Source: Lepisosteus oculatus
Taxonomy: Eukaryota; Chordata; Actinopteri; Semionotiformes; Lepisosteidae
NCBI RefSeq assembly: GCF_040954835.1
Contig: NC_090709.1
Location: forward strand, 39,094,276-39,158,275
Direction: 5' to 3'
DNA length: 64,000 bases
In this document: one piece after another, positions 1-64,000 of the stretch
Numbering within the stretch: position 1 is the first letter of the stretch
How the letters are laid out: each line of letters starts with the position of its first letter
Program-made: the position numbers and the translations under genes
Notes under the pieces: model-generated
Database searches by the model: none
The model's input: only the letters and a program-made list of their open reading frames with translations
Told to the model about the DNA's origin: nothing

Positions 1-15
1 ACAGGAGACAGGAGA

Positions 16-215
16 CACTGTCCTCTTGAAGAAGCCCTTACAGCCCTCACAGCTGTACACACCATAGTGCTTCCCTGAGGGAGAGGAGACACACTCCTGA
101 GACAGGAGACACACTCACTCACACACTGCTCTCCTGCAGGGACAGGAGACAGGAGACACTGTCCTCTTGAAGAAGCCCTTGCAGCCCTCAGAGCTGTACA
201 CACCAAAGTGCTTCC
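16..215 (-). pseudogene. rxrb: Two truncated tandem copies of the start of rxrb DNA-binding-domain exon
   Basis: On the minus strand two copies, 141 bp apart, each show a splice acceptor (CTCTCCCTCAG) followed by about 57 nt of the exon that continues from CAICGDRSSG. The left copy (16-74) reads [18 protein letters not shown], the second half of zinc finger 1. The right copy (157-215) reads [18 protein letters not shown], so a zinc-binding Cys is Ser and Tyr is Phe. Both leave the receptor sequence at the same place, just after KRT, where a real exon should continue. The functional exon therefore probably lies beyond the left edge and these are duplicated acceptor-plus-exon-start pieces. The left copy could be part of the real exon if the assembly is wrong here. 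Confidence 0.75.
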
Positions 216-239
216 CTGAGGGAGAGGAGACACACTCCT

Positions 240-840
240 GAGATAGGAGACACACTCACACACTGCTGGCTGTCCAGAGAGGACAGGCTCAGTGACCACA
301 GCCTGGATACACACACTGGACACAGGCAGACCAGGCTGTCCAGAGAGGACAGGCTCAGTGACCACAGCCTGGATACACACACTGGACACAGGCAGACCAG
401 GCTGTCCAGAGAGGACAGGCTCAGTGACCGTAGTCTGGACGGACACACTGGACACAGGCAGACCTGGCTGTCCAGAGAGGACAGGCTCAGTGACCGCAGC
501 CTGGACACAGACCTGGCTGCCCATAGAGGACAGGCTCAGTGACCACAGCCTGGACACACACACACTGGACACAATGCAGACCTGGCTGCCCAGAGAGGAC
601 AGGCTCAGTGAGCACAGCCTGGACACACACACTGGACACAGGCAGACCTGGCTGTCCAGAGAGGACAGGCTCAGTGAGCACAGCCTGGACACACACACTG
701 GACACAGGCAGACCTGGCTGTCCAGAGAGGACAGGCTCAGTGACCACAGACTGGACACACACACTGGACACAGGCAGACCTGGCTGTCCAGAGAGGACAG
801 GCTCAGTGACCACAGCCTGGACACACACACTGGACACAGG
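240..840 (+). repeat. 66-bp minisatellite derived in frame from a retroposon ORF
   Basis: About nine units of about 66 bp. One frame stays open and reads units such as HSLDTHTGHRQTWLSREDRL. The last unit runs directly into the retroposon-type sequence at 841, which continues with DRLCSHC, so the array looks like an expansion of 22 codons of that ORF. It lies in an intron of rxrb, antisense to it. Confidence 0.7.
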
Positions 841-1275
841 TAGACCTGGCTGCCCAGACAGGACAGGCTGTGCTCCCACTGCCAGTGGGGAGAAATAGAG
901 ACAGAGGTGCACTTCCTACTGCACTGGGACAGATACTCTGGGATTAGAGAAACATTCTTCCCTAAACTCAGAAACCTAATCCCAGAGTTCCCACCCCTGC
1001 CAGAATCCCAGCGGGTCCCGATCCTACTGGGAGAGGGCGGAGGGAACTCCGCTGAACTGGCGGCCCAGTGTGTGATCTCCTGTCCCAGCCAGAGCCCCAG
1101 TGAGCCTGTCTCCCAGTCCTGCTCCTGTCTAGATGGAGAGACCGGAGGACCGTGTCTGTACTGTAAATGTCTGCAGCTCTGTGTTCCATGTTAACTGTAT
1201 GTGTTTTGCTGTGGCAACACTGACTGTACTGACTTCACGCCAGTAAAGCGCCTTGAACTGGACTGGACTGAGCTG
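841..1275 (+). mobile_element. Non-LTR retroposon 3' end (C-terminal part of RT-type ORF and tail)
   Basis: The plus-strand translation DRLCSHCQWGEIETEVHFLL followed by HWDRYSGIRETFFPKL matches the Cys/His-containing C-terminal tail seen in many fish LINE-type reverse transcriptase ORFs (C-x2-C, then H-x4-C; here the last Cys is Trp). The reading frame later passes an ordinary stop, and the block ends with CCAGTAAAGCGCCTTGAACTGG and short ACTGG-type repeats, typical of a LINE 3' end. No RT catalytic region is present, so it is a 5'-truncated dead copy in an rxrb intron. Confidence 0.6.
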
Positions 1276-1341
1276 ACGGCACAGGAGAGAGAGAGGAGAG
1301 ACAGGAGAAGGAGAGGAGACTCGGACAGGGCGCTCTCTCAC

Positions 1342-4300
1342 CTGAGGAGCGGTCCCCACAGATGGCACAGAGGCGCTTCTGGGACATCATGGGCCCGGGG
1401 CTGTGAGCCGACATGGGCTTCAGGCCGAAGGGAGGCTTGACGTCGTCGGAGCTGGTGACCGTGTGCAGCCCAGACATGGACACTGTGGAGTTAATCTGAC
1501 ACAGAGACACAGGGGTTCATACACTGACTGGACACTCCAGGACATGAACACTGCACTGAGAGAGAGAGGGGTTCATACACACACACTGACTGGACACTCC
1601 AGGACATGAACACTGCACTGAGAGAGAGAGGGGTTCATACACACACACTGACTGGACACTCCAGTACATGAACACTGCACTGAGAGAGAGGGGTTCATAC
1701 AGACACACTGACTGGACACTCCAGTACATGAACACTGCACTGAGAGAGAGAGGGGTTAATACAGACACACTGACTGGACACTCCAGTACACTAACACTGC
1801 ACTGAGAGAGAGAGGGGTTCACACAGACACCCTGACTGGACACTCCAGTACATGAACACTGCACTGAGAGAGAGAGGGGGTCACACAGACACACTGACTG
1901 GACACTCCAGTACATGAACACTGCACTGAGAGAGAGAGGGGTTCATACACACACACTGACTGGACACTCCAGTACATGAACACTGCACTGAGAGAGAGGG
2001 GGGTTCATACACACACACTGACTGGACACTCCAGTACATGAACACTGCACTGAGAGAGAGAGGGGTTCATACAGACACACTGACTGGACACTCCAGTACA
2101 TGAACACTGCACTGAGAGAGAGAGGGGTTAATACAGACACACTGACTGGACACTCCAGTACATGAACACTGCACTGAGAGAGAGAGGGGTTCATACAGAC
2201 ACACTGACTGGACACTCCAGTACATGAACACTGCACTGAGAGAGAGAGGGGTTCACACACACACACTGACTGGACACTCCAGTACATGAACACTGCACTG
2301 AGAGAGAGAGGGGTTCATACAGACACACTGACTGGACACTCCAGTACATGAACACTGCACTGAGAGAGAGAGGGGTTCATACAGACACCCTGACTGGACA
2401 GACTGGGAGGGAGCCCCACTCACCTGCGGGCTGCTGATAGGGCCATACCCCACGCTGGGGGTGCCGGGAACGCAGGGCGACCCCAGCGAGGAGCTGATGA
2501 CGGAGAAGGGGGACCCCAGGCTGCTGATGGGCGAGTTGACCGCCGTCGTCATGGGGGGCAGGGGCGTCATGGCGGCGGCCGGGGGGGCCAGCGAGGGGGA
2601 GCGCTGCGCTGAGGGGGGGGAGGAGACGGAGGAGCTGTCGGGACTGCGGGAGTCTGAGGGAGAGGATATCAGCTTCAGCAACGCGGCCGGGCTGCTTGTT
2701 CCCCACCCCCACCCCCCTCTGTGTACAGAAGAGCCTCCTGTCCTGACTGGAGGAGCTCACCCAGCTGTGTCTGGAGAGAAGCCAGGGTATCGGCTTCAAC
2801 CACAGGGCTGGGCAGCCTGTTCCCCACCCCCACCCCCCTCTGTGTACAGTAGAGCCTCCTGTCCTGACTGGAGGAGCTCATCCAGCTGTGTCTGGAGAGA
2901 AGCCGGGGTATCGGCTTCAACCACAGGGCTGGGCAGCCTGTTCCCCACCTCCACCCCCCTCTGTGTACAGCAGAGCCTCCTGTCCTGACTGGAGGAGCTC
3001 ACCCAGCTGTGTCTGGAGAGAAGCCAGGGTATCGGCTTCAACCACAGGGCTGGGCAGCCTGTTCCCCACCTCCACCCCCCTCTGTGTACAGAAGAGCCTC
3101 CTGTCCTGACTGGAGGAGCTCACCCAGCTGTGTCTGGAGAGAAGCCAGGGTATCGGCTTCAACCACAGGGCTGGGCAGCTTGTTCCCCACCCCCACCCCC
3201 CTCTGTGTACAGAAGAGCCTCCTGTCCTGACTGGAGGAGCTCACCCAGCTGTGTCTGGAGAGAAGCCAGGGTATCGGCTTCAACAGCAGGGCTGGGCAGC
3301 TTGTTCCCCACCCCCACCTCCCTCTGTGTACAGAAGAGCCTCCTGTCCTGACTGGAGGAGCTCACCCAGCTGTGTCTGGAGAGGAGCCAGGGTATCGGCT
3401 TCAACCACAGGGCTGGGCAGCCTGTTTCCCACCCCCACCCCCCTCTGTGTACAGTAGAGCCTCCTGTCCTGACTGGAGGAGCTCACCCAGCTGTGTCTGG
3501 AGAGGAGCCAGGGTATCGGCTTCAACCACAGGGCTGGGCAGCCTGTTCCCCTCCTCCACCACTCTCTGTGTACAGAAGAGCCTCCTGTCCTGACTGGAGG
3601 AGCTCACCCAGCTGTGTCTGGAGACTGTGACACTCCCACTTGGAGCTACACTGTAGCTGTGTGTCTCCAGCACTGCACAGGCTGACAGGCTGAGAAACAC
3701 AGACTGACAAGACAGGCAAGAGAGACAGACCGACACTGGCAGGGGGAGAGACAGAGACACAAACAAGACAGGCAAGAGAGACAGACCGACACTGGCAGGG
3801 GGAGAGACAGAGACACAAACAAGACAGGCAAGAGAGACAGACCGACACTGGCAGGGGGAGAGACAGAGACACAAACAAGACAGGCAAGAGAGACAGACCG
3901 ACACTGGCAGGGGGAGAGACAGAGACACAAACAAGACAGGCAAGAGAGACAGACCGACACTGGCAGGGGGAGAGACAGAGACACAAACAAGACAGGCCGA
4001 GAGGCAGACCGACACTGGCAGAGGGAGAGACAGAGACACAAACAAGGCAGGCCAGAGAGACAGACAAGACACTGGCAGAGGGAGAGATAGCGACAGACAG
4101 AGACACACGGACGGGCTGAGAGACAGACCGAGAATCAGACAGACAGGCGGGTCTATAAACGCCCGCAGACAGACAGAGAGAGACTCAGACAGACGGCCTG
4201 GTCTGTATCCGCTTACAGACAGACGGGCCTGGCTATAAATACCCACAGACGCGCTGCCTGCGCTCCGAGTGAAGACCCACGGCGGCCAGAAAACACGAGT

Positions 4301-8339: not shown

Positions 8340-11300
8340 TCACTCGTACTCGGCGATCAGGACCATCATGCCCACCCCGAACAGCAGCGCCAGCACCTCC
8401 AGCAGGGACTGGGCCGGGCCGGCCTGGCCCAGCAGCAGCTCGGGCAGCACGGTCACCGTGGCGATGTACACGAAGCCCCCCGCGGTGAAGGGCAGGACCC
8501 AGGCGGTCGCCGTGGCGCCCGCGCCCTCGGCCAGCAGCGAGCAGGCGGTCCCCGCCAGCGCCCCCAGGGCGGTCAGCAGCTGCAGCAGCATGGCCTGGAC
8601 ACAGGGGGAGAGGGCACGGCGGTCAGCGGAGGGGAGACAGAGAGACAGAGTGGACAGCGGACAGTACCTTCCTCTTGGTGCAGCCCGACTGGACCAGGAT
8701 GGCAAGAGAGAGACGGGGGACAGGGGACAGGGGACAGTACCTTCCTCTTGGTGCAGCCCGACTGGACCAGGATGGCGAGAGAGAGAGTGGACAGTGGACA
8801 GTGGACAGGGGGACAGCGGACAGTACCTTCCTCTTGGTGCAGCCCGACTGGACCAGGATGGCGAGAGAGAGAGTGGACAGTGGACAGGGGGACAGCGGAC
8901 AGTACCTTCCTCTTGGTGCAGCCCGACTGGACCAGGATGGCGAGAGAGAGACAGGGGACAGCGGACAGGGGGACAGTGGACAGGGGGACAGTGGACAGTA
9001 CCTTCCTCTTGGTGCAGCCCGACTGGACCAGGATGGCGAGAGAGAGAGTGGACAGTGGACAGGGGGACAGCGGACAGTACCTTCCTCTTGGTGCAGCCCG
9101 ACTGGACCAGGATGGCGAGAGAGAGACGGTGGACAGTGGACAGGGGGACAGCGGACAGTACCTTCCTCTTGGTGCAGCCCGACTGGACCAGGATGGCGAG
9201 AGAGACAGTGGACAGCGGACAGTGGACAGTGGACAGGGGGACAGTGGACAGTACCTTCCTCTTGGTGCAGCCCGACTGGGCCAGGATGGCGAGAGAGAGA
9301 GTGGACAGGGGGACAGTGGACAGTGGACAGTGGACAGGGGGACAGTGGACAGGGGGACAGTGGACAGTACCTTCCTCTTGGTGCAGCCCGACTGGACCAG
9401 GATGGCGAGAGAGAGAGTGGACAGCGGACAGTACCTTCCTCTTGGTGCAGCCCGACTGGACGAGGATGGCGAGAGAGAGAGTGGACAGTGGACAGGGGGA
9501 CAGTACCTTCCTCTTGGTGCAGCCCGACTGGACGAGGATGGCGAGAGAGAGAGTGGACAGTGGACAGGGGGACAGTACCTTCCTCTTGGTGCAGCCCGAC
9601 TGGACCAGGATGGCGAGAGAGAGAGTGGACAGTGGACAGGGGGACAGTGGACAGGGGGACAGTGGACAGTACCTTCCTCTTGGTGCAGCCCGACTGGACC
9701 AGGATGGCGAAGTCTCCGATCTCGTGTGGGACCTCGTGCAGCAGGATGGTCACCGTGGTGACAACCCCCACCGCGGGGCTGATCAGGAAGGACGCCCCGA
9801 TGGCCAGCCCGTCCGTGAAGTTGTGGGTGAAGTCGGCCGCCAGGTTCAGGTACCCCGAAACCTTGATATCTGTACAGGCAGAGAGACAGGCTCAGACGCC
9901 CCGAAACCTTGATATCTGTACAGGCAGAGAGACAGGCTCAGACGCCCCGAAACCTTGACATCTGTACAGGGAGAGAGACAGGCTCAGACGCCCCGAAACC
10001 TTGACATCTGTACAGGGAGAGAGACAGGCTCAGACGCCCCGAAACCTTGACGTCTGTACAGGCAGAGAGACAGGCTCAGACACCCCGAAACCTTGACGTC
10101 TGTACAGGGAGAGAGACAGGCTCAGACGCCCCGAAACCTTGACGTCTGTACAGGCAGAGAGACAGGCTCAGACGCCCCTAAACCTTGATATCTGTACAGG
10201 GAGAGAGACAGGCTCAGACACCCCGAAACCTTGACATCTGTACAGGGAGAGAGACAGGCTCAGACACCCCGAAACCTTGATATCTGTACAGGGAGAGAGA
10301 CAGGCTCAGACACCCCAAAACCTTGACATCTGTACAGGGAGAGAGACAGGCTCAGACACCCCGAAACCTTGACATCTGTACAGGCAGAGAGACAGGCTCA
10401 GACACCCCGAAACCTTGACATCTGTACAGGGAGAGAGACAGGCTCAGACACCCCTAAACCTTGATATCTGTACAGGGAGAGAGACAGGCTCAGACACCCC
10501 GAAACCTTGACATCTGTACAGGGAGAGAGACAGGCTCAGACACCCCGAAACCTTGACATCTGTACAGGGAGAGAGACAGGCTCAGACACCCCGAAACCTT
10601 GACATCTGTACAGGCAGAGAGACAGGCTCAGACACCCCGAAACCTTGACATCTGTACAGGCAGAGAGACGGGCTCAGACACCCCGAAACCCCATTATCTG
10701 TACAGAGAGACAGAAGCCCATGAACACACCGCGAGACCAGCTTCCACAGACTGTCCCTCAAGTACCTGTCTGTCTCTCCACCTCCTGCTCCTTCCTCTGC
10801 TCCTGGGCCTGGCTGTCGGTCTTCCTCTGCCTCACCCCCTCCTGCTCAACCCTCCCCCCCTTCTCCTCCGGCTTCTCCGGCTTCTCCGGCTTCTCCGGGG
10901 CTCCTGGGGGGAGAGAGGGACAGTGAGAGAGAGGGACCGGGAGAGAGAGAGAGGGGGAGAGGGGACAGTGAGAGAGAGGGGACAGGAGAGAGAGGGGGAC
11001 CGGGACAGGAGAGAGAGGGGGAGAGGGGACAGTGAGAGAGAGAGAGGGGGAGAGGGGACAGTGAGAGAGAGGGACCGGGAGAGGGGACAGTGAGAGAGAG
11101 GGACCGGGAGAGAGAGAGAGAGGGACCGGGAGAGAGGACAGTGAGAGAGAGGGGACAGGAGAGAGAGGGGGAGAGGGGACAGTGAGAGAGAGGGGACAGG
11201 AGAGAGAGGGGGACCGGGAGAGAGAGGGACCGGGAGAGAGAGAGGGGACCGGGAGAGAGAGAGGGGACCGGGAGAGAGAGAGGGGACCGGGAGAGAGAGA

Positions 11301-13418
11301 GGGGACCGGGAGAGAGAGAGGGACTGGGAGAGAGGACAGTGAGAGAGAGGGACCGGGAGAGAGAGAGGGACTGGGAGAGAGGACAGTGAGAGAGAGGGAC
11401 CGGGAGAGAGAGAGAGGGACCGGGAGAGAGAGGGACCGGGAGAGAGGACAGTGAGAGAGAGGGACCGGGAGAGAGAGAGGGACCGGGAGAGAGAGAGGGA
11501 CCGGGAGAGAGAGGGGACAGTGACCTGTACCTACCGTGGGTGTGAGAGTGGGAGTGGGAGTGGGCGTGGGCGTGCCCCCCCTTCAGCAGGCGCACAAACT
11601 TCTCCACCACCAGGAAGGCCACGATGCCGGCCAGCACCCACAGCCCCACCGACATCATGTGGCCGTGAGCGCCACCTGCAGGGGGAGGGAGGGGACAGCG
11701 CCGCCTGAGACACTGCTGATCCCCCAGTCTGCACCCGCTTCCAGGAAACACCCCCCCCCGCCCGCCCGTCAATCATACCCGAGTGGGAGTGTCCATGGTC
11801 ACCTGACTCCTCCTGGCCCTGGGAGTGGCTGTGTCCCTCCTCACCGTGGTGCGAGTGAGGCTCTGAAAGAGAGGAGTCCAGACCCTCACACAGAGCCCTG
11901 AGACACTCCTCACGCAGAGAGAGGAGTCCAGACCCTCACACAGACCCCAGAGACACTCCTCACACAGAGAGAGGAGTCCAGACCCTCACACAGACCCCAG
12001 AGACACTCCTCACACAGAGAGAGGAGTCCAGACCCTCACACAGACCCCAGAGACACTCCTCACACAGAGAGAGGAGTCCAGACCCTCACACAGACCCCAG
12101 AGACACTCCTCACACAGAGAGAGGAGTCCAGACCCTCACACAGACCCCAGAGGCACTCCTCACACAGAGAGAGGAGTCCAGACCCTCACACAGACCCCAG
12201 AGACACTCCTCACACAGAGAGAGGAGTCCAGACCCTCACACAGACCCCAGAGACACTCCTCACACAGAGAGAGGAGTCCAGACCCTCACACAGACCCCAG
12301 AGACACTCCTCACACAGAGAGAGGAGTCCAGACCCTCACACAGACCCCAGAGACACTCCTCACACAGAGAGAGGAGTCCAGACCCTCACACAGACCCCAG
12401 AGACACTCCTCACACACAGAGAGAGGAGTCCAGACCCTCACACAGACCCCAGAGACACTCCTCACACAGAGAGAGGAGTCCAGACCCTCACACAGACCCC
12501 AGAGATACTCCTCACACAGAGAGAGGAGTCCAGACCCTCACACAGACCCCAGAGACAATCCTCACACAGAGAGAGGAGTCCAGACCCTCACACAGACCCC
12601 AGAGACACTCCTCACACAGAGAGAGGAGTCCAGACCCTCACACAGACCCCAGAGACACTCCTCACACAGAGAGAGGAGTCCAGACCCTCACACAGACCCG
12701 GAGGCTCACCCAGCGCGTGTGGGATCAGGTGCAGGAAGGCGTCCCCCAGCAGCCCCCCGGACGCGAAGCTCAGCAGGACCTTCAGCAGGCTCTGGTGCTG
12801 GTCGGTGTTGGACTGGACCGGTATCAGGAAGAGGATGAGGAAGGGAGCCGCGCTGATCAGCAGGGTGGCGCCCACAGCCTGGCCAGGTCAGAAGGGGACA
12901 GGCCGGGTCAGAACCGGACAGGGCGGGCCGGGTTGGCGCCTCTCAGCCGACCAGAGCTCGGCGGTGTCGGTCTCGCGCTCTCTCTCTCTCCGTACCTGAG
13001 TCCACAGCTCCAGCGTGCTCCTGCCGTCTCCTGCTCCTCTCTCCCGTCTCGCACTCCCGTCGGCGAGCGCGTCCCCGTGCGCGTGGGGCTCAGAGTGAGC
13101 GTGCGCGTGCGAATCCCCGTGCGAGTGGGCGTGCGAATCCCCGTGCGAGTGGGCGTGCGAATCCCCGTGCGAGTGGGCGTGCGAATCCCCGTGCGAGTGG
13201 GCGTGCGAATCCCCGTGCGAGGGCAGGTTGGCCTCGGCGCTCCACTTGCTGGCGCCGTGGTGCATCTTCCCCCCCCCGTGCGAGTGGCCGTGGCAGCCGC
13301 CGCCCCCGTGCGAGTGGGAGTGGGAGTGGGAGAGCGCGGGCTGGAGGAGGGCGCCGGCGGCGAACAGCGCCGCCCAGAGGACAGACAGGCGCACTGCGCC
13401 TCTCCCTGCCATTGTCAT
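8340..13418 (-). CDS. slc39a7: Zinc transporter SLC39A7 (ZIP7, KE4/Catsup family)
   Basis: ER/Golgi zinc exporter of the LIV-1 ZIP subfamily, moving zinc to the cytosol. Seven coding exons (minus): 12996-13418, 12710-12878, 11779-11862, 11535-11675, 10766-10903, 9673-9869, 8340-8594. They join in phase to 468 aa, about the length of human ZIP7. There is a signal peptide ([20 protein letters not shown]), then a long His-rich lumenal part with [19 protein letters not shown] and five tandem SHGDSHAH-type units (DNA 13085-13220). Membrane segments follow ([39 protein letters not shown]). A second His-rich region precedes a charged [11 protein letters not shown] loop. The metal-site motifs [13 protein letters not shown] and [17 protein letters not shown] are intact. 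Start may be Met at 13418 or 13412. Minisatellites built from both edges of exon 6 flank that exon. Confidence 0.96.
8660..9672 (-). repeat. Array copying the 3' edge of slc39a7 exon 6 with its splice donor, about 12 copies
   Basis: Each unit (about 72-115 bp, typically near 79) contains, on the minus strand, GCCATCCTGGTCCAGTCGGG then CTGCACCAAGAGGAAG and the donor GTACTGTCC. The real exon 6 ends with exactly this sequence (encoding [12 protein letters not shown]). Between copies are GGACAGTGGACAGGGGGACA-type fillers on the plus strand. Confidence 0.92.
9870..10695 (-). repeat. 46-bp array copying the 5' edge of slc39a7 exon 6 with its splice acceptor, about 18 copies
   Basis: On the minus strand each unit has CTGTCTCTCTCCCTGTACAG followed by ATGTCAAGGTTTCGGGGT. 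The genuine exon begins after TCTCTGCCTGTACAG with ATATCAAGGTTTCGGGGT. The copies nearest the exon are the most exon-like (ATATCAAG). Confidence 0.92.
10910..11520. repeat. GA-rich array (GAGAGAGAGGGACCGG units)
   Basis: Imperfect units of about 18-40 bp made of GAGAGAGA, GGGACCGG and GGACAGTGAGAG, filling slc39a7 intron 4. Confidence 0.85.
11866..12705 (-). repeat. 52-bp minisatellite filling slc39a7 intron 2, about 16 copies
   Basis: On the minus strand the unit is GGTCTGTGTGAGGGTCTGGA then CTCCTCTCTCTGTGTGAGGA. It runs from about 8 bases after the exon 2 donor right to the polypyrimidine tract of exon 3. The same family occurs in agpat1 intron 3 (27945) and TRIM intron 1 (36610). Confidence 0.9.
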
Positions 13419-16675: not shown

Positions 16676-19463
16676 TCAGATGCTCAGCAGCCAGAAGAAG
16701 AAGAAGATGGCGACGAAGAGGAACAGGGAGTCCTGCCAGCTGTTGCCGTTGCCGGGGTTACCGTTGTCCGGGTAACCGCCGCCTGGGTGGGGAGTATCTG
16801 GGGGCGAGGAAGAGAACCCCCAAATCAGAACAGATTCCAGCTGGAGAGTCGCTATATAACCTCATGATACTGAGAGCACAACACACACACACTCCTGTAC
16901 AGACACACACACTCCTGTAGAGACACACACACACACTCCTGTACAGACACACACACTCCTGTAGAGACACACACACACACTCCTGTACAGACTCTTACTG
17001 GACACACTGTAGAGACACACACACTCCTGTAGACTCTTATTGGACACACTGTATAGACACACACACACTCCTGTAGACTCTTACTGGACACACTGTATAG
17101 ACACACACACTCCTGTACAGACTCTTACTGGACACACTGTATAGACACACACACACACTCCTGTACAGACTCTTATTGGACACACTGTATAGACACACAC
17201 ACACACTCCTGTACAGACTCTTATTGGACACACTGTATAGACACACACACACTCCTGTAGACTCTTACTGGACACACTGTATAGACACACACACTCCTGT
17301 ACAGACTCTTACTGGACACACTGTATAGACACACACACACACTCCTGTACAGACTCTTATTGGACACACTGTATAGACACACACACACTCCTGTAGACTC
17401 TTACTGGACACACTGTATAGACACACACACACTCCTGTAGAGACACACTGTACCTGCGCGGTGAAACGGGTCATTGGTGTTGAAGACTGTAGTGAAGAAA
17501 CCAAAGGGAAACGCACCAATACCGAAGGACATGTGGAACCCAGTGTCACCGAAACCCTGGAAGGGCTGAGAGAGAGAGAGGGGTTCATACACTCCAGTAC
17601 ATGAACACTGCACTGAGAGAGAGAGGGGTTCATACAGACACACTGACTGGACACTCCAGTACATGAACACTGCACTGAGAGAGAGAGAGGGGTTCATACA
17701 GACACACTGACTGGACACTCCAGTACATGAACACTGCACTGAGAGAGAGAGGGGTTCATACAGACACACTGACTGGACACTCCAGTACATGAACACTGCA
17801 CTGAGAGAGAGAGGGGTTCATACAGACACACTGACTGGACACTCCAGTACATGAACACTGCACTGAGAGAGAGAGGGGTTCATACACACACACTGACTGG
17901 ACACTCCAGTACATGAACACTGCACTGAGAGAGAGAGGGGTTCATACACACACCCTGACTGGACACTCCAGTACATGAACACTGCACTGAGAGAGAGAGG
18001 GGTTCATACAGACACACTGACTGGACACTCCAGTACATGAACACTGCACTGAGAGAGAGAGGGGTTCATACAGACACCCTGACTCAGTGACTCACCCCTC
18101 TGCTCTCCGGCTCTGGTCTCTGTCCCTGAGGTCGAGGAGGAGTTTTCAATCTATAAAAACACCAAGAAAGAGTTAATTCATGAAGCTGAGCAAAGATACC
18201 AACAACTGGAAAACAGGAAACCTCCTGAGTCTTTCAGAAGACCGGGTTTCGCAGTGCTCTGTGGTCCGACTGTTACCACTAGACAACGGGTCAGATGTAA
18301 AACCTGGAAAGGAAGGGACTGCTGTGCAGCTGGAGTCTATGAGCACTAAAAACCTGCCCCACTTCACTCAGACAGACACTGGCGCACAGTGGACACACAA
18401 CGGACAGGACAGGACAGTACCGTGGGTCATCCTGACTTGAGCTCCCTCTTCCATACAGAGGAATAACGTTCTCCCGGCTGATCCCGGCCTTACACACTGG
18501 ACACTGCTGTCTGCTGGGGCGGGTCTCCAACCACTGAGAGAGAGAGGGGTTAATACACTCCAGGACATGAACACTGACCTGAGAGAGAGAGAGACTGACT
18601 GGACACTCCAGGACATGAACACTGACCTGAGAGAGAGGGGTTCACACACACACACTGACTGGACACTCCAGGACATGAACACTGCACTGAGAGAGAGAGG
18701 GGTTCATACAGACACACTGACTGGACACTCCAGTACATGAACACTGTACTGGGAGAGAGACAAACTGACTGAAAGTTACATTAAACATACACCAAGGAAG
18801 AAATTAAAAAAACACTTACTTGGTGTAGACATGGCCAGCTGTTTCATGAAAGAAAGCAAAGAGATTTGCATTTAATTTCAGAAAGGTTACAAACAAGAAG
18901 TCACTATGCACATTAGACCCGTTTGGTGGGTCAGTAGCTAATTGATCAGAGGAATTCATCCAGCTGTTCCACTCCCCCACCCCCCTCTGTGTACAGAAGA
19001 GCCTCCTGTCCTGACTGGAGGAGCTCACCCAGCTGTGTCTGGAGAGAAGCCAGGGTATCGGCTTCAACCACAGGGCTGGGCAGCCTGTTCCCCACCCCCA
19101 CCCCCCTCTGTGTACAGAAGAGCCTCCTGTCCTGACTGGAGGAGCTCACCCAGCTGTGTCTGGAGAGAAGCCAGGGTATCGGCTTCAACCACAGGGCTTG
19201 GCAGCCTGTTCCCCACCCCCACCCCCCTCTGTGTACACACACACACAGACAGTGTCGCTGCCTCTGAGCCCCGACCCCAGCTCGCACCAGAACAGATGTC
19301 CGCACAGGCTGATCACCGCGTCCCTGGCCGTGTCCAGGCAGATGTTACACTCGAAGGTGGCCCGGTCGCGCTCCGTGTCCCGGCCCAGCCCGCCTCCCGT
19401 CCCGCCCCGGTCGCCGTCCTCGGCCGGACCGCTGTCCGCCGTGCGCCTGGGCTCCGCCGCCAT
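16676..19463 (-). CDS. rnf5: RNF5 RING-finger E3 ubiquitin ligase (ER membrane)
   Basis: ER-anchored E3 ligase acting in protein quality control. Six coding exons (minus): 19288-19463, 18820-18838 (a 19-nt micro-exon), 18421-18533, 18096-18150, 17454-17565, 16676-16797; all GT-AG with agreeing phases, 198 aa (human 180). The protein starts [20 protein letters not shown]. The C3HC4 RING is [20 protein letters not shown], then LFCWPCLHQWLETRP, then CPVCKAG. The micro-exon supplies WPCLHQ including a RING Cys. Then come [15 protein letters not shown], a Pro-rich linker, the conserved [16 protein letters not shown] and a C-terminal anchor [16 protein letters not shown]. It is head to head with agpat1, as in human. 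Two introns hold 62-bp arrays ending exactly at their acceptors. Confidence 0.96.
16870..17450. repeat. About 45-60-bp minisatellite in rnf5 intron 5
   Basis: Units of ACACACACTCCTGTACAGAC, TCTTACTGGACACACTGTAT AGAC-type sequence. It begins immediately after the exon 5 donor, whose GTACAGTGTGTC resembles the unit's ATACAGTGTGTC on the minus strand. Confidence 0.85.
17566..18090 (-). repeat. 62-bp minisatellite at the acceptor of rnf5 exon 5
   Basis: About 8 units; the last CTCTCTCTCTCAG is the acceptor used by exon 5 (CCCTTCCAGGG). Sense orientation. Confidence 0.9.
18535..18755 (-). repeat. 62-bp family array at the acceptor of rnf5 exon 3
   Basis: About 3.5 partly deleted units; the last CTCTCTCTCAG is the acceptor of exon 3 (TGGTTGGAG). 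Sense orientation. Confidence 0.85.
18970..19240 (+). repeat. 121-bp family, about 2 copies (rnf5 intron 1)
   Basis: Same unit as at 2685, plus strand, with the TGTGTACAGAAGAGCCTCC block. Confidence 0.9.
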
Positions 19464-23621: not shown

Positions 23622-23939
23622 GTAAGCGCAGCGGGGGGGGGCGGTCGTGACGCTCCGGTATCCCCCGGGGCCGTGTTTCCGTGCGGCTCGGGAGAGGGAC
23701 AGCTGTCCAGGACCGCGGGACAGAAACACTGGGACGCATCGCCCGTGGCTTCGCGTGGGATCGCTGACCGCCGTGGGCAGTGGGCTCGGCTTAGTCTGGA
23801 TCTGATTATAATAACCCATCCAGCTCCCAGTCCAGTCCAGTCCAGTCCAGTCCAGTCCAGTCCTGTCCAGTCCTGTCCAGTCCTGTCCTGGAGATTCTCA
23901 GCCTGCTCTGTCAGTGTCAGTGGAGTCTGATTATAACCC

Positions 23940-26751: not shown

Positions 26752-26752
26752 G

Positions 26753-37553: not shown

Positions 37554-37574
37554 CCCCACTTCTGTACACCTGAA

Positions 37575-37985
37575 CACGGCACTGAGAGAGAGAGGGGTTC
37601 ACACACACACTGACTGGACACTCCAGTACATGAACACGGCACTGAGAGAGAGAGGGGTTCATACACACACACTGACTGGACACTCCAGTACATGAACACT
37701 GCACTGAGAGAGAGAGGGGTTCATACAGACACACTGACTGGACACTCCAGTACATGAACACTGCACTGAGAGAGAGAGGGGTTCATACACACACACTGAC
37801 TGGACACTCCAGTACATGAACACTGCACTGAGAGAGAGAGGGGTTCATACACACACACTGACTGGACACTCCAGTACATGAACACTGCACTGAGAGAGAG
37901 AGGGGTTCATACAGACACACTGACTGGACACTCCAGTACATGAACACTGCACTGAGAGAGAGAGGGGTTAATACAGACAGGACTC
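37575..37985 (-). repeat. 62-bp minisatellite at the acceptor of TRIM coding exon 1
   Basis: About 6.5 units. The real exon start after CTCTCTCTCTCAG is TGCCGTGTTCAGGTGTACAG; the unit's TGCAGTGTTCATGTACTGG is a close relative. Sense orientation. Confidence 0.88.
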
Positions 37986-50283: not shown

Positions 50284-53200
50284 CTAGACAGGTAGCACAA
50301 AGGGCACACCCTCTGGGATCAAGCCACCATTAGGCTGGGTCTGTCCTCCATTAGAGATCAAGGGCACTGATACACCTGGGAGAGAGAGAGAGACAGAGGG
50401 GTTAATACACACACACACTGACTGGACACTCCAGTACATGAACACTGCACTGAGAGAGAGAGGGGTTCACACAGACACACTGACTGGACACTCCAGTACA
50501 TGAACACTGCACTGAGAGAGAGAGGGGTTCACACAGACACACTGACTGGACACTCCAGTACATGAACACTGCACTGAGAGAGAGAGGGGTTCATACACAC
50601 ACACTGACTGGACACTCCAGTACATGAACACTGCACTGAGAGAGAGAGGGGTTCACACAGACACACTGACTGGACACTCCAGTACATGAACACTGCACTG
50701 AGAGAGAGAGGGGTTCATACACACACACTGACTGGACACTCCAGTACATGAACACTGCACTGAGAGAGAGAGGGGTTCACACACACACTGACTGGACACT
50801 CCAGTACATGAACACTGCACTGAGAGAGAGAGGGGTTCACACACACACACTGACTGGACACTCCAGTACATGAACACTGCACTGAGAGAGAGAGGGGTTC
50901 ATACACACACACTGACTGGACACTCCAGTACATGAACACTGCACTGAGAGAGAGAGGGGTTCACACAGACACACTGACTGGACACTCCAGTACATGAACA
51001 CTGCACTGAGAGAGAGAGGGGTTCATACACACACACTGACTGGACACTCCAGTACATGAACACTGCACTGAGAGAGAGAGGGGTTCACACACACACTGAC
51101 TGGACACTCCAGTACATGAACACTGCACTGAGAGAGAGAGGGGTTCACACACACACACTGACTGGACACTCCAGTACATGAACACTGCACTGAGAGAGAG
51201 AGGGGTTCACACACACACTGACTGGACACTCCAGTACATGAACACTGCACTGAGAGAGAGAGGGGTTCACACACACACACTGACTGGACACTCCAGTACA
51301 TGAACACTGCACTGAGAGAGAGAGGGGTTCATACACACACACTGACTGGACACTCCAGTACATGAACACTGCACTGAGAGAGAGAGAGGGGTTCATACAG
51401 ACACACTGACTGGACACTCCAGTACATGAACACTGCACTGAGAGAGAGAGGGGTTCATACAGACACACTGACTGGACACTCCAGTACATGAACACTGCAC
51501 TGAGAGACAGAGGGGTTAATACACACACACACTGACTGGACACTCCAGTACATGAACACTGCACTGAGAGAGAGAGGGGTTCACACAGACACACTGACTG
51601 GACACTCCAGTACATGAACACTGCACTGAGAGAGAGAGGGGTTCATACACACACACTGACTGGACACTCCAGTACATGAACACTGCACTGAGAGAGAGAG
51701 GGGTTCACACAGACACACTGACTGGACACTCCAGTACATGAACACTGCACTGAGAGAGAGAGGGGTTCATACACACACACTGACTGGACACTCCAGTACA
51801 TGAACACTGCACTGAGAGAGAGAGGGGTTCACACACACACTGACTGGACACTCCAGTACATGAACACTGCACTGAGAGAGAGAGGGGTTCACACACACAC
51901 ACTGACTGGACACTCCAGTACATGAACACTGCACTGAGAGAGAGAGGGGTTCATACACACACACTGACTGGACACTCCAGTACATGAACACTGCACTGAG
52001 AGAGAGAGGGGTTCACACAGACACACTGACTGGACACTCCAGTACATGAACACTGCACTGAGAGAGAGAGGGGTTCATACACACACACTGACTGGACACT
52101 CCAGTACATGAACACTGCACTGAGAGAGAGAGGGGTTCACACACACACTGACTGGACACTCCAGTACATGAACACTGCACTGAGAGAGAGAGGGGTTCAC
52201 ACACACACACTGACTGGACACTCCAGTACATGAACACTGCACTGAGAGAGAGAGGGGTTCACACACACACTGACTGGACACTCCAGTACATGAACACTGC
52301 ACTGAGAGAGAGAGGGGTTCACACACACACACTGACTGGACACTCCAGTACATGAACACTGCACTGAGAGAGAGAGGGGTTCATACACACACACTGACTG
52401 GACACTCCAGTACATGAACACTGCACTGAGAGAGAGAGAGGGGTTCATACAGACACACTGACTGGACACTCCAGTACATGAACACTGCACTGAGAGAGAG
52501 AGGGGTTCATACAGACACACTGACTGGACACTCCAGTACATGAACACTGCACTGAGAGAGAGAGGGGTTCATACACACACACTGACTGGACACTCCAGTA
52601 CATGAACACTGCACTGAGAGAGAGAGGGGTTCATACACACACACTGACTGGACACTCCAGTACATGAACACTGCACTGAGAGAGAGAGGGGTTCATACAG
52701 ACACCCTGACTGGACACTCCAGGACATGAACACTGCACTGAGAGAGAGAGAGGGGTTCATACAGACACACTGACTGGACACTCCAGTACATGAACACTGC
52801 ACTGAGAGAGAGAGGGGTTCATACAGACACACTGACTGGACACTCCAGTACATGAACACTGCACTGAGAGAGAGAGGGGTTCACACACACACACTGACTG
52901 GACACTCCAGTACATGAACACTGCACTGAGAGAGAGAGAGGAGTTAAAACCCCCAAAAAAGGTCAGCTTACTGTTGCCGTTGGAGATGGTCTTGCCGTCC
53001 TGGGTGTGGTTCTCTTTACCAGTGTAGATGGGGCTCTCTGCAAGAGAGAGTTAAACTTATGTTTCCTGTGTGCAGAGAACCCGTGACTGTCCCCCTTGGT
53101 CTTCACCGCCTGCGGGTCTGTACCCCGTGGTCCAGGTGAGGAGACACCACCCCCCCCCACCCTGCAGTTCCCCTCCGCACCCCGGTCAGGCCAGCAGAAT

Positions 53201-56200: not shown

Positions 56201-59200
56201 CCAGAGCCCCTGTCGCACGCACGCACGCACACCAGAGCCCCTGTCGCACGCACGCACGCACACCAGAGCCCGTCGCACGCACGCACGCACACCAGAGCCC
56301 CTGTCGCACGCACGCACGCACACCAGAGCCCCTGTCGCACGCACGCACGCACGCACACCAGAGCCCCTGTCGCACGCACGCACGCACGCACACCAGAGCC
56401 CCTGTCGCACGCACGCACGCACACCAGAGCCCGTCGCACGCACGCACGCACACCAGAGCCCCTCTCGCACGCACGCACACCAGAGCCCCTGTCGCACGCA
56501 CACCAGAGCCCCTGTCGCACGCACGCATGCACACCAGAGCCCCTCTCGCACGCACGCACGCACACCAGAGCCCCTCTCGCACGCACGCACGCACACCAGA
56601 GCCCCTCTCGCACGCACGCACACCAGAGCCCCCGTCGCACGCACGCACGCACACCAGAGCCCCCGTCGCACGCACGCACGCACGCCAGAGCCCCTATCCT
56701 TACCCCACTGCCTGACGACAGGCTCTTTCAGGCTGCTGTGTTTGACCTCACAGCTGTAGCTCCTCTTGTCCGTCTCCCGGATCTCCAGACTCTTCCTCAG
56801 CTGGTAGGTGTCTTCCTCAGCGCCGTTGGGCCTGACCCCACTGGACAGCACCCTGTCCTTCTCCAGCAGCATGACCCCGTCCCGGTAGAGGTCCACCTGG
56901 ACGTCGGGGGGGTAGAAGCCCGTGGCCAGGCAGGTCAGCGTGAGCTGGCCGGGGGTCAGTGACCTCTTGGCAAACATGTGGACATCAGGGGGAACTGAGA
57001 CAGGTGGGGGAGGAGAGGGTTACTGCAGGCACAGCCACTGACCGACTGGACACTGTCCACAGTCAGCACTCACTACCGACCAAACACTTTCTGATCTGTC
57101 TGGCTCTGTGTACTGGACACACGCTGTCCACACTGACCAGCACTGTCCACATACTCCTGACCCTGACCACACACTGGTACACTGACCACACATTCCAGCA
57201 CACTGACCACACACTGGTGCACTGACCACACATTCCAGCACACTGACCACACACTGGTGCACTGACCACACTGCCCAGCACATTGACCACACACTGGTGC
57301 ACTGACCACACACTCCTGACCCTGACCACACACTGGTACACTGACCACACACTCCTGACCCTGACCACACACTGGTCCACTGACCTCACATTCCAGCACA
57401 CTGACCACACACTGGTGCACTCTCCACACATTCCTGACCCTGACCACACACTGGTCCACTGACCACACATTCCAGCACACTGACCACACACTGGTGCACA
57501 CTGACCACACTCTGTCCAGCACACTGACCACACTCTGTCCAGCACACTGACCACACTCTGTCCAGCACACTGACCAGACTTCTTGATCTGCTGCTCTCCG
57601 AACCCCAGGAACTTGGTCAACCAGTCCACACACTCCCTCTCCAGGTAGCCCTTGGTGTACTGGTTCAGAATCTGCTCGTTGTCCCACTTGTGCTTCGTGG
57701 GCTCAGCGGGCCAGACCGGCGCCACCCACTGCATTTTGGACTCATCGAAAGACAGGAAGTCCCGCCCATCGTAGCTGTACTGATCGTAGCCCCTCAGGAA
57801 CTGGGGTTTAGAGCCAGGCTGCACCTCGATTTCACAGCCGTGCATCCACTGGAGAATATGGAGATCTGAGAGAGAGAGAGACAGGTTCAGACACACAGTG
57901 CCCTGAGAGAGAGAGACAGGTTCAGACACACAGTGCCCTGAGAGAGAGAGACAGGTTCAGACACACAGTGCCCTGAGAGAGAGAGACAGGTTCACACACA
58001 CAGTGCCCTGAGAGAGAGAGACAGGTTCACACACACAGTGCCCTGAGAGAGAGAGACAGGTTCACACACACAGTGCCCTGAGAGAGAGAGACGGGTTCAC
58101 ACACACAGTGCCCTGAGAGAGAGAGACAGGTTCACACACACAGTGCCCTGAGAGAGAGAGACAGGTTCACACACACACTGCCCTGAGAGAGAGAGAGGGG
58201 TTCACACACACACTGCCCTGAGAGAGAGAGAGGGGTTCATACACACACTGCCCTGAGAGAGAGAGACAGGTTCACACACACACTGCCCTGAGAGAGAGAG
58301 AGGGGTTCATACACACACAGTGCCCTGAGAGAGAGAGAGGGGTTCATACACACACAGTGCCCTGAGAGAGAGAGAGGGGTTCACACACACACTGCCCTGA
58401 GAGAGAGAGAGGGGTTCACACACACACTGCCCTGAGAGAGAGAGACGGGTTCACACACACACTGCCCTGAGAGAGAGAGAGGGGTTCATACACACACACT
58501 GTCCTGAGAGAGAAAGAGGGGTTCATACACACACAGTGCCCTGAGAGAGAGAGAGGGGTTCATACACACACTGCCCTGAGAGAGAGAGGGGTTCATACAG
58601 ACACAGGAGGAGGTACACAGACTTCAGGACAGGAGACACATGATGTCCAGCTCACCAGAGTTGTTCTGTCTCATCCGGTCCATCAGAATCCCAACGTTGA
58701 CTTTGAACCACTGCTCCTTGCTCTTCCTGGACTGGGTTCCCTTCTCCCAGTATTCCTGACCCATGTTTGTCTTCATCCAGCTCTGCTTGGGAATCTTCTG
58801 CATGATCCAGTTGTCATAGTAATCGATCTGCCTGTCGTTCAGCACCCCCATAGCTGTGAACTCAGGGATGCCATCTACAGGCTTGGAGAGGGCAGTGTAT
58901 ATATAGTGCAGGGAGTGTCTCTCTGGAACAGAGAGAGAGGGGGGTTAATACACACACACTGACTGGACACTCCAGTACACACAGTGTGGGACACTCCCTC
59001 CAGACTGAAGAGACTCAGTTCCCTCAGCCTGTCAGTGTGGGACACTCCCTTCAGACTGAAGAGACTCAGTTCCCTCAGCCTGTCAGTGTGGGACACTCTG
59101 AAGGGAGTCAGTGTGGGACCCTCCCTCCAGACTGAAGAGACTCAGTTCCCTCAGCCTGTCAGTGTGGGACACTCCCTTCAGACTGAAGAGACTCAGTTCC

Positions 59201-62200: not shown

Positions 62201-62378
62201 AACTAGTTTCACTTTCGCGTTTCTCGACACAGGACGAAGCGGCTTCCGAGAAGGGCGACGGGCAGAAAGTCTCTCGACGGACCCAGGGAACTAGAAACCA
62301 TCCACCGGAATCTTCCTTACCGCCGCTGGCCGGCCAGCACAGGGCCAGCGCCAGGAGAAGGGCCGGTCCGCGGGTCAT
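50284..62378 (-). CDS. MHC class I heavy chain, gene B
   Basis: Nine coding exons (minus): 62321-62378 leader [19 protein letters not shown]; 58656-58922 alpha1; 57575-57865 alpha2; 56704-56994 alpha3; 55073-55204 transmembrane ([20 protein letters not shown], then HRRKK); tail exons 54895-54927, 53336-53362, 52972-53037, 50284-50375. Phases agree; 418 aa. Alpha3 is identical to gene A; I count two amino acid differences in alpha1 and three in alpha2. The leader, membrane segment and tail ([26 protein letters not shown], ending GVPFVLPV) are unrelated to gene A. Anchor residues (YIYT, EYW, TKHKW) and both alpha2 Cys are kept. Intron 1 is 3.4 kb and holds SXY- and ISRE-like motifs, so a second first exon near 59991-60126 is possible, though it lacks a hydrophobic leader. 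Confidence 0.92.
50390..52950 (-). repeat. 62-bp minisatellite filling the last intron of class I B, about 41 copies
   Basis: Largest array of this family. A higher-order unit of about 1.05 kb is visible: 50550-51490 recurs at about 51600-52550. Sense orientation; the 3' end is the acceptor of the last exon. Confidence 0.93.
53415..54872 (-). repeat. 41/50-bp minisatellite in class I B tail intron, about 33 copies
   Basis: Units of CAGACAGGCTCGCTGAGACT and CCACTGCAGGGGCGCAGAGC on plus. All minus frames are open for up to about 500 codons because the units lack stops; not a gene. Confidence 0.9.
55325..56700. repeat. 22-34-bp CACGCACGCACACCAGAGCC array
   Basis: About 50 units with variable numbers of the CACG tetramer. 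It starts at the alpha3 donor of class I B (GTAAGGATAGGGGCTCTGGC), whose GGGCTCTGG is part of the unit. It is nearly stop-free on both strands, giving false ORFs of up to 673 codons. Confidence 0.92.
57120..57574 (-). repeat. Degenerate GTCAGTGTGCTGG array after class I B alpha2
   Basis: Counterpart of 42499-42960, rearranged relative to it. Confidence 0.85.
57870..58615 (-). repeat. About 37-bp CTCTCTCAGGGCAGTGTGTG array (class I B intron 2)
   Basis: About 20 units on minus, sense; counterpart of 41960-42207. Confidence 0.88.
58980..59885 (+). repeat. 48-bp minisatellite in class I B intron 1, about 18 copies
   Basis: Units of CCAGACTGAAGAGACTCAGT and TCCCTCAGCCTGTCAGTGTG. One 62-bp-family unit (58935-58978) separates it from the alpha1 acceptor. 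Confidence 0.9.
59965..59976 (-). promoter_or_regulatory. ISRE-like element
   Basis: GAAAGCGAAACT on the minus strand fits the interferon-stimulated response element consensus GAAANNGAAACT. Confidence 0.5.
60187..60229 (-). promoter_or_regulatory. SXY-like MHC enhancer (X1, X2/CRE, Y/CCAAT)
   Basis: Reading on the minus strand: CTGGCGACCGG (X1-like), TGACGTCA (X2, 60212-60219), 20 bp, then ATTGG (Y box, CCAAT on plus at 60187-60191). Order, strand and spacing match the RFX/CREB/NF-Y module of MHC genes. The flanking 59990-60250 is a CpG island. Confidence 0.55.
60720..61330. mobile_element. Cluster of interspersed repeat fragments with a hairpin
   Basis: An (AAT)n tract and TATAGCGCCTTTAAAGGTGG block (60720-60810). 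Then an imperfect hairpin: arm 60911-60959, loop of about 13 nt, arm 60973-61022, centred on CACGGCCGAAACGTTGTG. Then a fragment at 61275-61330 (TATAGCGCTTTTCTGGACAC) shared with the 5S-SINE-like element at 34890. Confidence 0.6.
61628..61692. repeat. GAACCT/GAACTT hexamer microsatellite
   Basis: About 11 units of GAACCTGAACTT. Next to it, 61380-61620 and 61700-62200 show no gene or repeat that I can recognise. Confidence 0.9.
62205..62216 (-). promoter_or_regulatory. ISRE-like element in class I B intron 1
   Basis: GAAAGTGAAACT on the minus strand fits GAAANNGAAACT exactly. It lies about 100 bp downstream of leader exon 62321-62378. Confidence 0.5.
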
Positions 62379-62409
62379 CTGGGCCAGAAGCGCAGCAGCG
62401 ACGGGTCCC

Positions 62410-62820
62410 GGAGTCTGGAGCTGTCTCTCTCTCTCTCCTCTGGAGTCTGGAGTCTGGAGTCTGGAGCTGTCTCTCTCTCTCTCCCGGAGTCTGGAGCTGT
62501 CTCTCTCTCTCTCTCCTGGAGTCTGGAGCTGTCTCTCTCTCTCTCTCCTGGAGTCTGGAGTCTGGAGCTGTCTCTCTCTCTCTCCTGGAGTCTGGAGCTG
62601 TCTCCCTCTCTCTCTTCCGTGTGTCTGTAGCTGTCTCTCTCTCTCCTGCGTGTCTGTAGCTGTCTGACCCTCCCTCTCTCGCTCTCTCTCTCTCTCTCTT
62701 CCGTGTGTCTGTAGCTGTCTCTCTCTCTCTCCTGCGTGTCTGTAGCTGTCTGTCCCTCCCTCTCTCGCTCTCTCTCTCCCGTGTGTCTGTAGCTGTCTCT
62801 CTCTCTCCCCCCTGGTGTGT
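62410..62820. repeat. CT-rich array (GGAGTCTGGAGCTGTCTCTC units)
   Basis: Units of 27-45 bp: GAGTCTGGAGCTGTCTCTCT then GTGTCTGTAGCTGTCTCTC. Located immediately upstream of the class I B leader exon. Confidence 0.85.
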
Positions 62821-63221
62821 CTCTCTCTCACTTCCGCGTGTCTCTGCGGAGCCAGTCGACTCCGCCCCTGAGCCGCGCACAGACAGACGCACGGAGCAGG
62901 CAGGCAGCGCCGCCCCGACCAGCCCAGTGAATCAGCCCCAGCCCAGTGGGGAGCGTACTGCACGCGCACCAAACCATTAACTGGACTGGGGAACTGCCGA
63001 GGCAGCCTGGTGTCGGACCAGCGCTGGCTCACGCGGGGTGCGCGTGTGACGTGTGTGTGTGTGTCACACGGGGGTCAGCGAGGGTCACGTCACCCCTGGG
63101 CAGGGTCGTGGGAACAGCCCTCCCAGTCCTCGGGGTGTCCCAGCAGGGCGAGAGTGACCACAGCCTGGACAGAGGGGTCAATTCAGACACCGACGGGGGG
63201 AGCCCCGCGCCCAGCATGTGA

Positions 63222-64000
63222 GTGACCCCCAGTCTCTCTGTGAGGAGGAGGGGTCAGTGTCCAGTCCTCACTGTAAGAGCACCCCCACACCAGGAGTGAC
63301 CCCAGTCTCTCTGTGAGGAGGAGGGGTCAGTGTCCAGTCCTCGCTGTAAGAGCACCCCCACACCAGGAGTGACCCCAGTCTCTCTGTGAGGAGGAGGGGT
63401 CAGTGTCCAGTCCTCACTGTAAGAGCACCCCCACACCAGGAGTGACCCCAGTCTCTCTGTGAGGAGGAGGGGTCAGTGTCCAGTCCTCGCTGTAAGAGCA
63501 CCCCCACACCAGGAGTGACCCCCAGTCTCTCTGTGAGGAGGAGGGGTCAGTGTCCAGTCCTCACTGTAAGAGCACCCCCACACCAGGAGTGACCCCCAGT
63601 CTCTCTGTGAGGAGGAGGAGGGGTCAGTGTCCAGTACTCACTGTAAGAGCACCCCCACACCAGGAGTGACCCCAGTCTCTCTGTGAGGAGGAGGGGTCAG
63701 TGTCCAGTCCTCACTGTAAGAGCACCCCCACACCAGGAGTGACCCCCAGTCTCTCTGTGAGGAGGAGGGGTCAGTGTCCAGTCCTCGCTGTAAGAGCACC
63801 CCCACACCAGGAGTGACCCCCAGTCTCTCTGTGAGGAGGAGGGGTCAGTGTCCAGTCCTCGCTGTAAGAGCACCCCCACACCAGGAGTGACCCCAGTCTC
63901 TCTGTGAGGAGGAGGAGGGGTCAGTGTCCAGTCCTCGCTGTAAGAGCACCCCCACACCAGGAGTGACCCCCAGTCTCTCTGTGAGGAGGAGGGGTCAGTG
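63222..64000. repeat. About 76-bp minisatellite, 10 copies, running off the right edge
   Basis: Units of GAGTGACCCCCAGTCTCTCT, GTGTCCAGTCCTCACTGTAA and AGCACCCCCACACCAG. Begins at a donor-like GTGAGTGACC (63219) after an open plus frame ending SLDRGVNSDTDGGSPAPS. Confidence 0.9.

Follow-up and report, generated by a model that had tools for sequence, protein, structure and literature searches.

Among the described systems closest to the one considered here are introners, which have been reported in 5% of species with, in the parts of that survey available, no pattern of gain in vertebrates (PMC9860276). In the human CBS gene, according to the accessible part of the report, a 31-bp variable number tandem repeat (VNTR) lies at the boundary of exon 13 and intron 13 (PMC5188458), and internal tandem repeats are described, in an account available in part, as altering gene structure in human segmental duplications (PMC2812944). 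The present analysis concerns 64,000 nucleotides of the genome of Lepisosteus oculatus (G000:C14:39094276-39158275; this whole stretch is called the window) and the minisatellite arrays in its introns, above all those of a dispersed 62-bp unit that we call u62. An earlier note on this DNA had proposed a rule for the whole window, namely that minisatellites include the edge of the neighbouring exon. The reading that we favour, with a probability of roughly 0.55, is that this apparent rule is a matter of geometry and that u62 is a splice-site family that spread by acceptor-anchored copying, followed by tandem expansion. No description of a u62-like family was found among openly licensed PMC papers.

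A unit resembling a 3' splice site in the window and its flanks

By its structure u62 is a minisatellite: its 62-bp units are arranged head to tail, with between 2.7 and 75 copies in an array. In the sense of the gene the unit reads ...GTGTCTGTATTAACCCCTCTCTCTCTCAG, comprising TATTAAC or TATGAAC, a pyrimidine (CT) tract and CAG; judged from its sequence, it looks like a complete 3' splice site, in which TTAAC or TGAAC would be the branch-point-like element. Genes were located by tblastn with protein queries, the genome searched being a 1.2-Gb assembly of 813 contigs. In the window this placed rxrb, slc39a7, rnf5, a TRIM gene and class I B on the minus strand, and agpat1 and class I A on the plus strand, with exon numbers that presumably match the human ones. 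The last u62 unit runs directly into the exon in rxrb, at exons 3 and 5 of rnf5, at exon 7 of agpat1, at the alpha1 exons of class I A and class I B, and at the putative last class I B exon (Table 1). At the rxrb acceptor the terminal unit reads gtatgaacccctgtgtctctgtgtcag up to the junction and ATTAAC after it. A 35-bp relative of u62 likewise runs into the exon at both alpha2 exons. The two class I genes also provide a case in which the exon junction is constant and the array length differs, there being 13.8 u62 units before the exon in class I A and one in class I B.

When seed positions are compared with the annotation, u62 is in the sense of its gene in all eight of its places in the window. 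The corresponding sense/antisense counts for other dispersed families are 2/1 for the 50-mer, 1/3 for the 121-mer arrays and 0/2 for the 41-mer, numbers that are too small to test. The window and 40 kb of flanks form 104 contiguous kb containing 13 u62 places, one of which is hidden by an N gap; an acceptor stands at the end of 11 of the 12 readable places, ten of them in register. It is register and orientation, not distance, that set u62 apart from other arrays. In a homeodomain gene of the flank, the intron between VLQ and VWFQN is filled by 4.7 kb of u62, which begin 5 nt past the donor and reach the acceptor. Two exons in the flanks we take, by eye, to be CYP21-like. The piece L002 holds 2,700 N, including a gap at the 3' end of a u62 array at 73003 (on the side of window coordinates of about 72803-73002); given this gap, arrays may break assembly.

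u62 beyond the region

Genome-wide, 3,891 matches to an exact 39-mer of u62 were counted (1922 forward, 1969 reverse), and the reversed control has none; those listed (the first 100) lie on C3 and C4. The earlier note had named confinement to this contig as an outcome that would speak against its rule. The pattern was found on other contigs, yet it is regional: 20 random 10-kb windows, one on each of C1-C20, consist of about 1% arrays and hold no u62.

A second sample was formed from the first 20 u62 clusters in list order, on C3 and C4, with 1.3 kb read beyond the last match; exon calls in this and the following sample were made partly by eye. For two of these the array continued past the end of the piece, which leaves 18; an AG with an open frame follows in 15, and in 12 of these the array joins it directly in register (L030 is counted here, its last unit, TATTAATC, having been missed by the scripted motif), and in L037 the exon is not readable either way. 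Matches above the Pfam cut-offs were obtained for 7 of the 18 pieces (L031, L033, L034, L041, L043, L045 and L049), with L048 just short; L039 and L040 gave weak eRF1 matches, those of L035 (HEAT) and L038 (PAN_4) fell below the cut-off and are taken as chance, and for six pieces there was no Pfam match. By eye, the genes with u62 in this sample presumably include those for BCKDHA, paxillin, pelota, coronin, TUFM, CLCA and SERCA. In the control, none of six open frames following CTCTCTCAG in random windows had a Pfam match, two more sites with short frames being left out.

The third sample was drawn with a pattern requiring AG followed by a base other than T, which gave 43 matches in 33 clusters (one already read), of which 11, on further contigs, were taken for spread. 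Exons followed in seven of the 11; one more is possible, two matches are array-internal and one has no exon. Here Pfam placed Matrixin (L073) above its cut-off and IF4E (L071) and MIP (L079) below, with no match for four. Genome-wide, the pattern with TTAAC and a base other than T after AG occurs 43 times, that with TGAAC 45 times, and that with TTAAC and T after AG 1879 times; the non-T matches include array-internal variants (L075, L077). As read from the sequence, u62 lies within introns of numerous unrelated genes, and the final unit usually passes into a functional-looking acceptor. The same splice-site module recurs on C3 at a spacing of 57-58 bp in place of 62 (G000:C3:9384017-9385306 and 9945755-10382393), and is by its sequence a putative sister family of u62 with a shorter spacer.

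The 5' ends and age of u62 introns

At the 5' ends of the same 20 clusters, three of which run off the piece, a donor was seen by eye 0-55 nt before the array in 13 of the 17 others, and u62 therefore often fills the whole intron. No donor was seen at the array 5' end in the remaining four readable cases (L050, L058, L066 and L067), L067 being a CT-rich microsatellite. The unit phase at the array 5' end is variable, and 8 of the 13 donor-bearing arrays retain 9-55 nt of unlike sequence after the donor. These ends bear on the idea of spliceosome-mediated replacement, whereby an excised u62 intron would enter spliced mRNA by reverse splicing where the old exons join, and the product would then be copied into the gene again. 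Old positions, sense orientation and sharp 3' ends are what such a process would produce, but a whole-intron swap should share one 5' end, and the differing phases and retained unlike sequence make it very unlikely.

Four u62 introns were compared with paralogues within this genome, and each has a counterpart there. The SERCA gene on C4 carries two of them, ahead of residues ~429 and ~770; exons of the paralogues on C22 and C29 start at both places, and for residue ~770 an exon of the paralogue on C6 does so too; the homeodomain exon ends at the same residue in copies on C9 and C27; and rnf5 intron 4 is also present in the paralogue on C22. By these comparisons u62 in all four cases took over an old intron and did not form a new one. 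Introner-type gain, in which u62 would be the mobile intron that made these introns, draws on the many near-identical introns in unrelated genes and on the donors that lie inside the first unit or no more than 4 nt from it in 5 of the 17 readable ends (L052, L057, L059, L062 and L065). It is rejected for the four tested introns because their positions are shared with paralogues, and as a general account we regard it as extremely improbable.

How u62 may have spread

We suggest that a u62 copy would be laid down from the pyrimidine tract of an acceptor, stopping at variable points. The template might be another array, used in repair or replication through the CTCTCTCAG that both share, or it might be an array transcript, copied in a target-primed reaction. 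Both routes would give a fixed 3' junction, a fixed orientation and variable 5' ends. The native intron sequence would be lost afterwards, the array would grow and shrink by unequal exchange, and the last unit would be retained because the gene now depends on it. A more far-reaching proposal, which we put forward only tentatively and hold to be doubtful, is that u62 is a spreading 3' splice-site module, copying itself into the acceptors of transcribed genes in an RNA-templated or transcription-coupled manner and taking over nearly the whole of old introns, with the result that the splicing of genes on several chromosomes of one vertebrate depends on this one repeat.

It has to be considered that u62 might instead be the tail or relic of a retroelement that targeted pyrimidine microsatellites, acceptor CT tracts serving as targets and the unit later becoming a minisatellite. 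Non-long terminal repeat (non-LTR) elements that target microsatellites are known, as reported in the available part of one study (PMC4640811); the orientation of u62 is fixed, its copies are 3'-anchored and 5'-variable, and the cluster L067/L047 lies beside a CT-rich microsatellite without an exon. Against this, no common 5' flank can be seen by eye at the 17 readable array starts, and no element body or enzyme turned up, no genome search for one having been made; we judge such an origin unlikely. The 3' ends of u62 lie at CT tracts in sense orientation, and since target and element share the tract, its origin is indistinguishable. The evidence does not discriminate between copying by DNA homology, target-primed copying of RNA and a retroelement that targets CT tracts. 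A candidate observation, that CT tracts outside acceptors are free of u62, was withdrawn: 2 of the 28 CT-tract sites counted in the window are acceptors, and 27 of the 28 lie in two arrays of the 35-bp u62 relative, leaving one independent site.

Several observations weigh against acceptor-anchored copying. The u62 array at -14617 is not at an acceptor, and that of the TRIM gene is near one yet out of register. No exon follows u62 in L038 and L047 of the second sample and L076 of the third; in both samples exons were sought only downstream in the sense of the unit, so that antisense arrays would count as having none. The u62 array is separated from the exon by a further, native-looking tract in L034, L041 and L049. 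The distance to the acceptor according to Tandem Repeats Finder (TRF) does not differ significantly between u62 and other window arrays (median 12 versus 53 nt, P=0.07), and the counts give no overall support for a better branch point in the terminal unit, TTAAC being present in 15/22 terminal versus 49/101 internal units (P=0.11). Finally, the copying step itself is something that we infer.

Exon edges and the geometry of short introns

Exon-intron structure in the window was set by homology to the query proteins and the GT/AG consensus, which gave 81 putative splice junctions; 80 were used, the acceptor of the second exon for the rxrb DNA-binding domain (DBD2) being left out because its functional copy is outside the window. 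Pfam agrees with 8 of the 10 exon pieces (Acyltransferase, MHC_I, C1-set, RING, PRY/SPRY, Zip, zf-C4 and Homeodomain) and gave no match for the CYP-like piece and the VWFQN piece. No known RNA family was detected in the window at Rfam thresholds, and no tRNA. TRF arrays with a score of at least 50 make up 61% of the window (59.6% with a period of at least 10 and a score of at least 80) and 76% of the 35.4 kb of annotated intron.

The earlier note had held that exon edges fall within arrays far more often than chance would allow. When a junction is called straddled if at least 10 intronic and at least 5 exonic nt lie within an array, 5 of the 80 junctions are straddled versus 46.6 +/- 5.4 in circular rotations; there is no enrichment, and exon edges are depleted in arrays. 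The 20 random windows are too array-poor to serve as an exon control. In a seeding model, simple and based on a hand-typed table of introns and periods, in which one unit is placed uniformly in each short intron, 14.5 +/- 2.5 of 62 edges would be straddled in the absence of selection; allowing up to 40 exonic nt lowers this to 12.0 +/- 2.4, and 5 are seen. A few units do contain an exon edge, presumably since extra copies of splice sites or exon ends can be spliced out.

An array lies within 40 nt on the intron side at 34 of the 80 junctions. Minisatellite arrays are present in 31 of the 39 annotated introns, the eight array-free introns being 87-298 nt long. Single-block introns number 27; their uncovered remainder has a median length of 75 nt, and ten of them leave less than 50 nt. 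Block placement within the intron is near uniform (mean smaller share 0.20 versus 0.25, P=0.04). Array ends are near exon edges because so many introns carry arrays and the uncovered remainder is short; with closeness explained by short, nearly filled introns, no special cause is needed for the arrays that had been listed. The supposed rule is the geometry of arrays in short introns, and there is no real excess. One might go further and hold that a minisatellite-rich, gene-dense region with very short introns is all there is, nothing being specific to splice sites. The array coverage, the short remainders, the depleted straddling and the TRF distances of u62 all agree with this, but it leaves unexplained why one unit family lies in sense and in register with the acceptors of unrelated genes on several contigs, and we consider it rather unlikely.

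Arrays at individual exon edges

Most of the junction-spanning arrays of the earlier note do exist, and its interpretation is supported in part only. Both sides of slc39a7 exon 7 are in arrays, as it had described, with 29 exonic nt at the acceptor and 38 at the donor; the agpat1 exon 2 acceptor and ATG are within an array that includes 15 exonic nt; and in the TRIM gene, read by eye, an array likewise encloses the final coding sequence including the stop codon. At the start of the rxrb DBD exon, a 141-bp array (TRF 23.8 copies) extends from window position -2983 into the window and holds the acceptor and ~60 exonic nt. The true DBD exon is outside the window, at L001:6894-7076 on the minus strand (zf-C4, E=1.2e-27), and decayed copies of its start number 20 in L001 and two in the window. 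At L001:6562-6781 the 3' end of the DBD2 exon (query residues 53-70) recurs twice downstream, so that both exon edges have copies. The class I alpha2 donors, which had been called suggestive, each have 6 exonic nt inside an array in both genes. After the class I A alpha3 donor the unit CAGTGAGGTAAAGACC resembles the edge CAGTGGGGTAAGGACC, as claimed, though the TRF array begins 10-26 nt downstream.

Other cases fared less well. At the agpat1 donor at 27944 there are 2 exonic nt in the array, and the claim is weaker than it was made, since the 50-bp unit is dispersed and the array is therefore not derived from that exon. By TRF the arrays at the rnf5 exon 5 donor and the TRIM exon 2 acceptor stop 9 nt short and do not span the junction, and that at the class I B alpha3 donor stops 8 nt short; all three had been listed as suggestive, the TRIM case as an exon 1 acceptor. 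The same alpha3 donor is followed in class I A (42941-43903) by the donor-like array and in class I B (55332-56704) by an unrelated 31-bp array; with different arrays after one donor in an inverted duplication, arrays therefore turn over faster than exons.

Table 1. Arrays at or near exon edges in the window (window coordinates).
Feature	Position	Strand	Basis and remarks
End of rxrb DBD2 141-bp array, acceptor and ~60 nt of exon	1..263	-	Sequence reading
u62 array, rxrb intron before DBD1 exon, last unit into acceptor at 1495	1495..2400	-	TRF 62 x 14.2 at 1521-2400
Local array, slc39a7 exon 7 donor and 38 exonic nt	8636..9710	-	TRF
Local 46-bp array, slc39a7 exon 7 acceptor and 29 exonic nt	9841..10690	-	TRF
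Dispersed 50-bp family filling slc39a7 intron 3 (10 + 5 nt uncovered)	11868..12699	-	TRF; other copies at 27943-28488 (agpat1) and 36611-36943 (TRIM)
u62 array filling rnf5 intron 4 (11 + 23 nt uncovered)	17565..18084	-	TRF; intron shared with paralogue on C22
u62 array, rnf5 intron 2, last unit = exon 3 acceptor	18533..18760	-	TRF and sequence reading
Local 55-bp array; unit = TACTAAC, CT tract, CAG, first 15 nt of agpat1 exon 2 with ATG	23934..26766	+	TRF 50.7 copies
u62 array filling agpat1 intron 6, last unit = exon 7 acceptor	29065..30259	+	TRF 62 x 19.1; gap 18 nt to donor, 0 nt to acceptor
Array with 3' end of TRIM coding sequence including stop codon	31947..32482	-	TRF and eye
u62 array before TRIM exon 2, 9 nt from acceptor, out of register	37571..37979	-	TRF
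u62 array ahead of alpha1 in class I A, its CT tract adjoining TCTGTTCCAG	40781..41646	+	TRF 62 x 13.8
35-bp u62 relative (GTGTGTGTGAACC, CT tract, CAG) before class I A alpha2	41965..42207	+	TRF and sequence reading
Array with 6 exonic nt at the alpha2 donor of class I A	42493..42941	+	TRF; class I B equivalent at 57141-57580
Array, unit like class I A alpha3 donor	43372..43903	+	TRF and sequence reading
u62 array, 2.55 kb, last class I B intron	50376..52938	-	TRF; acceptor by consensus only
35-bp u62 relative before class I B alpha2	57866..58603	-	TRF and sequence reading
Single u62 unit ahead of alpha1 in class I B; class I A has the same junction	58923..58981	-	Seed at 58955

Repeats of other kinds are also present. 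A coding exon of slc39a7 contains a 24-bp tandem repeat (13101-13221) that encodes a His-rich stretch (HSHGDSHA), an array tolerated within an exon. The 121-bp unit forms arrays at 2663-3624, 18964-19237, 33057-33469 and 39891-40406, with a partial single copy at 31085-31150, all on the plus strand, and also matches the random windows L016 and L022. At 34870-35700 and again at 47650-48485 there is a dispersed repeat (CCACCTGGATGATGCTCCAGTCCTCTCAC...) with a 204-207-bp tandem repeat (CTCCCAGGAGTCTCCCC...) behind it, as though a single mobile element had a tail that turned tandem. C4 (2.8-16.7 Mb) and C14 hold many RING exons that are 38-40% identical to residues 1-45 of rnf5, which suggests, from similarity, a large TRIM-like expansion.

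Comparison with known systems

If the u62 pattern holds genome-wide, one repeat can replace the bodies of conserved vertebrate introns and leave gene structure unchanged, by a process that stands between transposition and concerted evolution. The arrays would then be a natural experiment on how the spliceosome chooses among dozens of near-identical 3' splice sites, and they call for caution in gene prediction and assembly in array-rich regions of this type. One of the causes offered by the earlier note, an element inserting at splice sites, fits this one family, whose arrays run up to 3' splice sites not only in the window and its flanks but also on other chromosomes, though not the arrays in general, where there is no excess at exon edges.

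Like introners, as these are presented in the accessible parts of the survey (PMC9860276), u62 carries splice signals and is found again and again in introns of genes that are unrelated to one another. Introners, however, create introns, whereas the tested u62 introns are old, none of the four being at a new position, and u62 is a tandem minisatellite. It mostly reaches the acceptor, and the donor-to-acceptor span of an introner is approached at the five 5' ends noted above. The resemblance to microsatellite-targeting non-LTR retrotransposons, as far as the available description extends (PMC4640811), lies in the simple-repeat target and in the fixed orientation and 3'-anchored copies that would result; unlike those elements, the u62 unit is 62 bp long and tandem, and is accompanied by no body or enzyme that turned up here, where no genome search was made.

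The human CBS VNTR, on the portion of the report available (PMC5188458), is the nearest counterpart of the local arrays, the unit spanning an exon edge at slc39a7 exon 7 (two edges), agpat1 exon 2 and rxrb DBD2; the class I alpha2 arrays of A and B also include an exon edge in the unit. The CBS repeat is at a single locus, whereas u62 is dispersed and supplies acceptors. The repeats of human segmental duplications, so far as the accessible account describes them (PMC2812944), are similarly tandem repeats within genes, with exon-intron structure altered after duplication; those are local and found in recent human paralogues, whereas u62 is a dispersed splice-site family.

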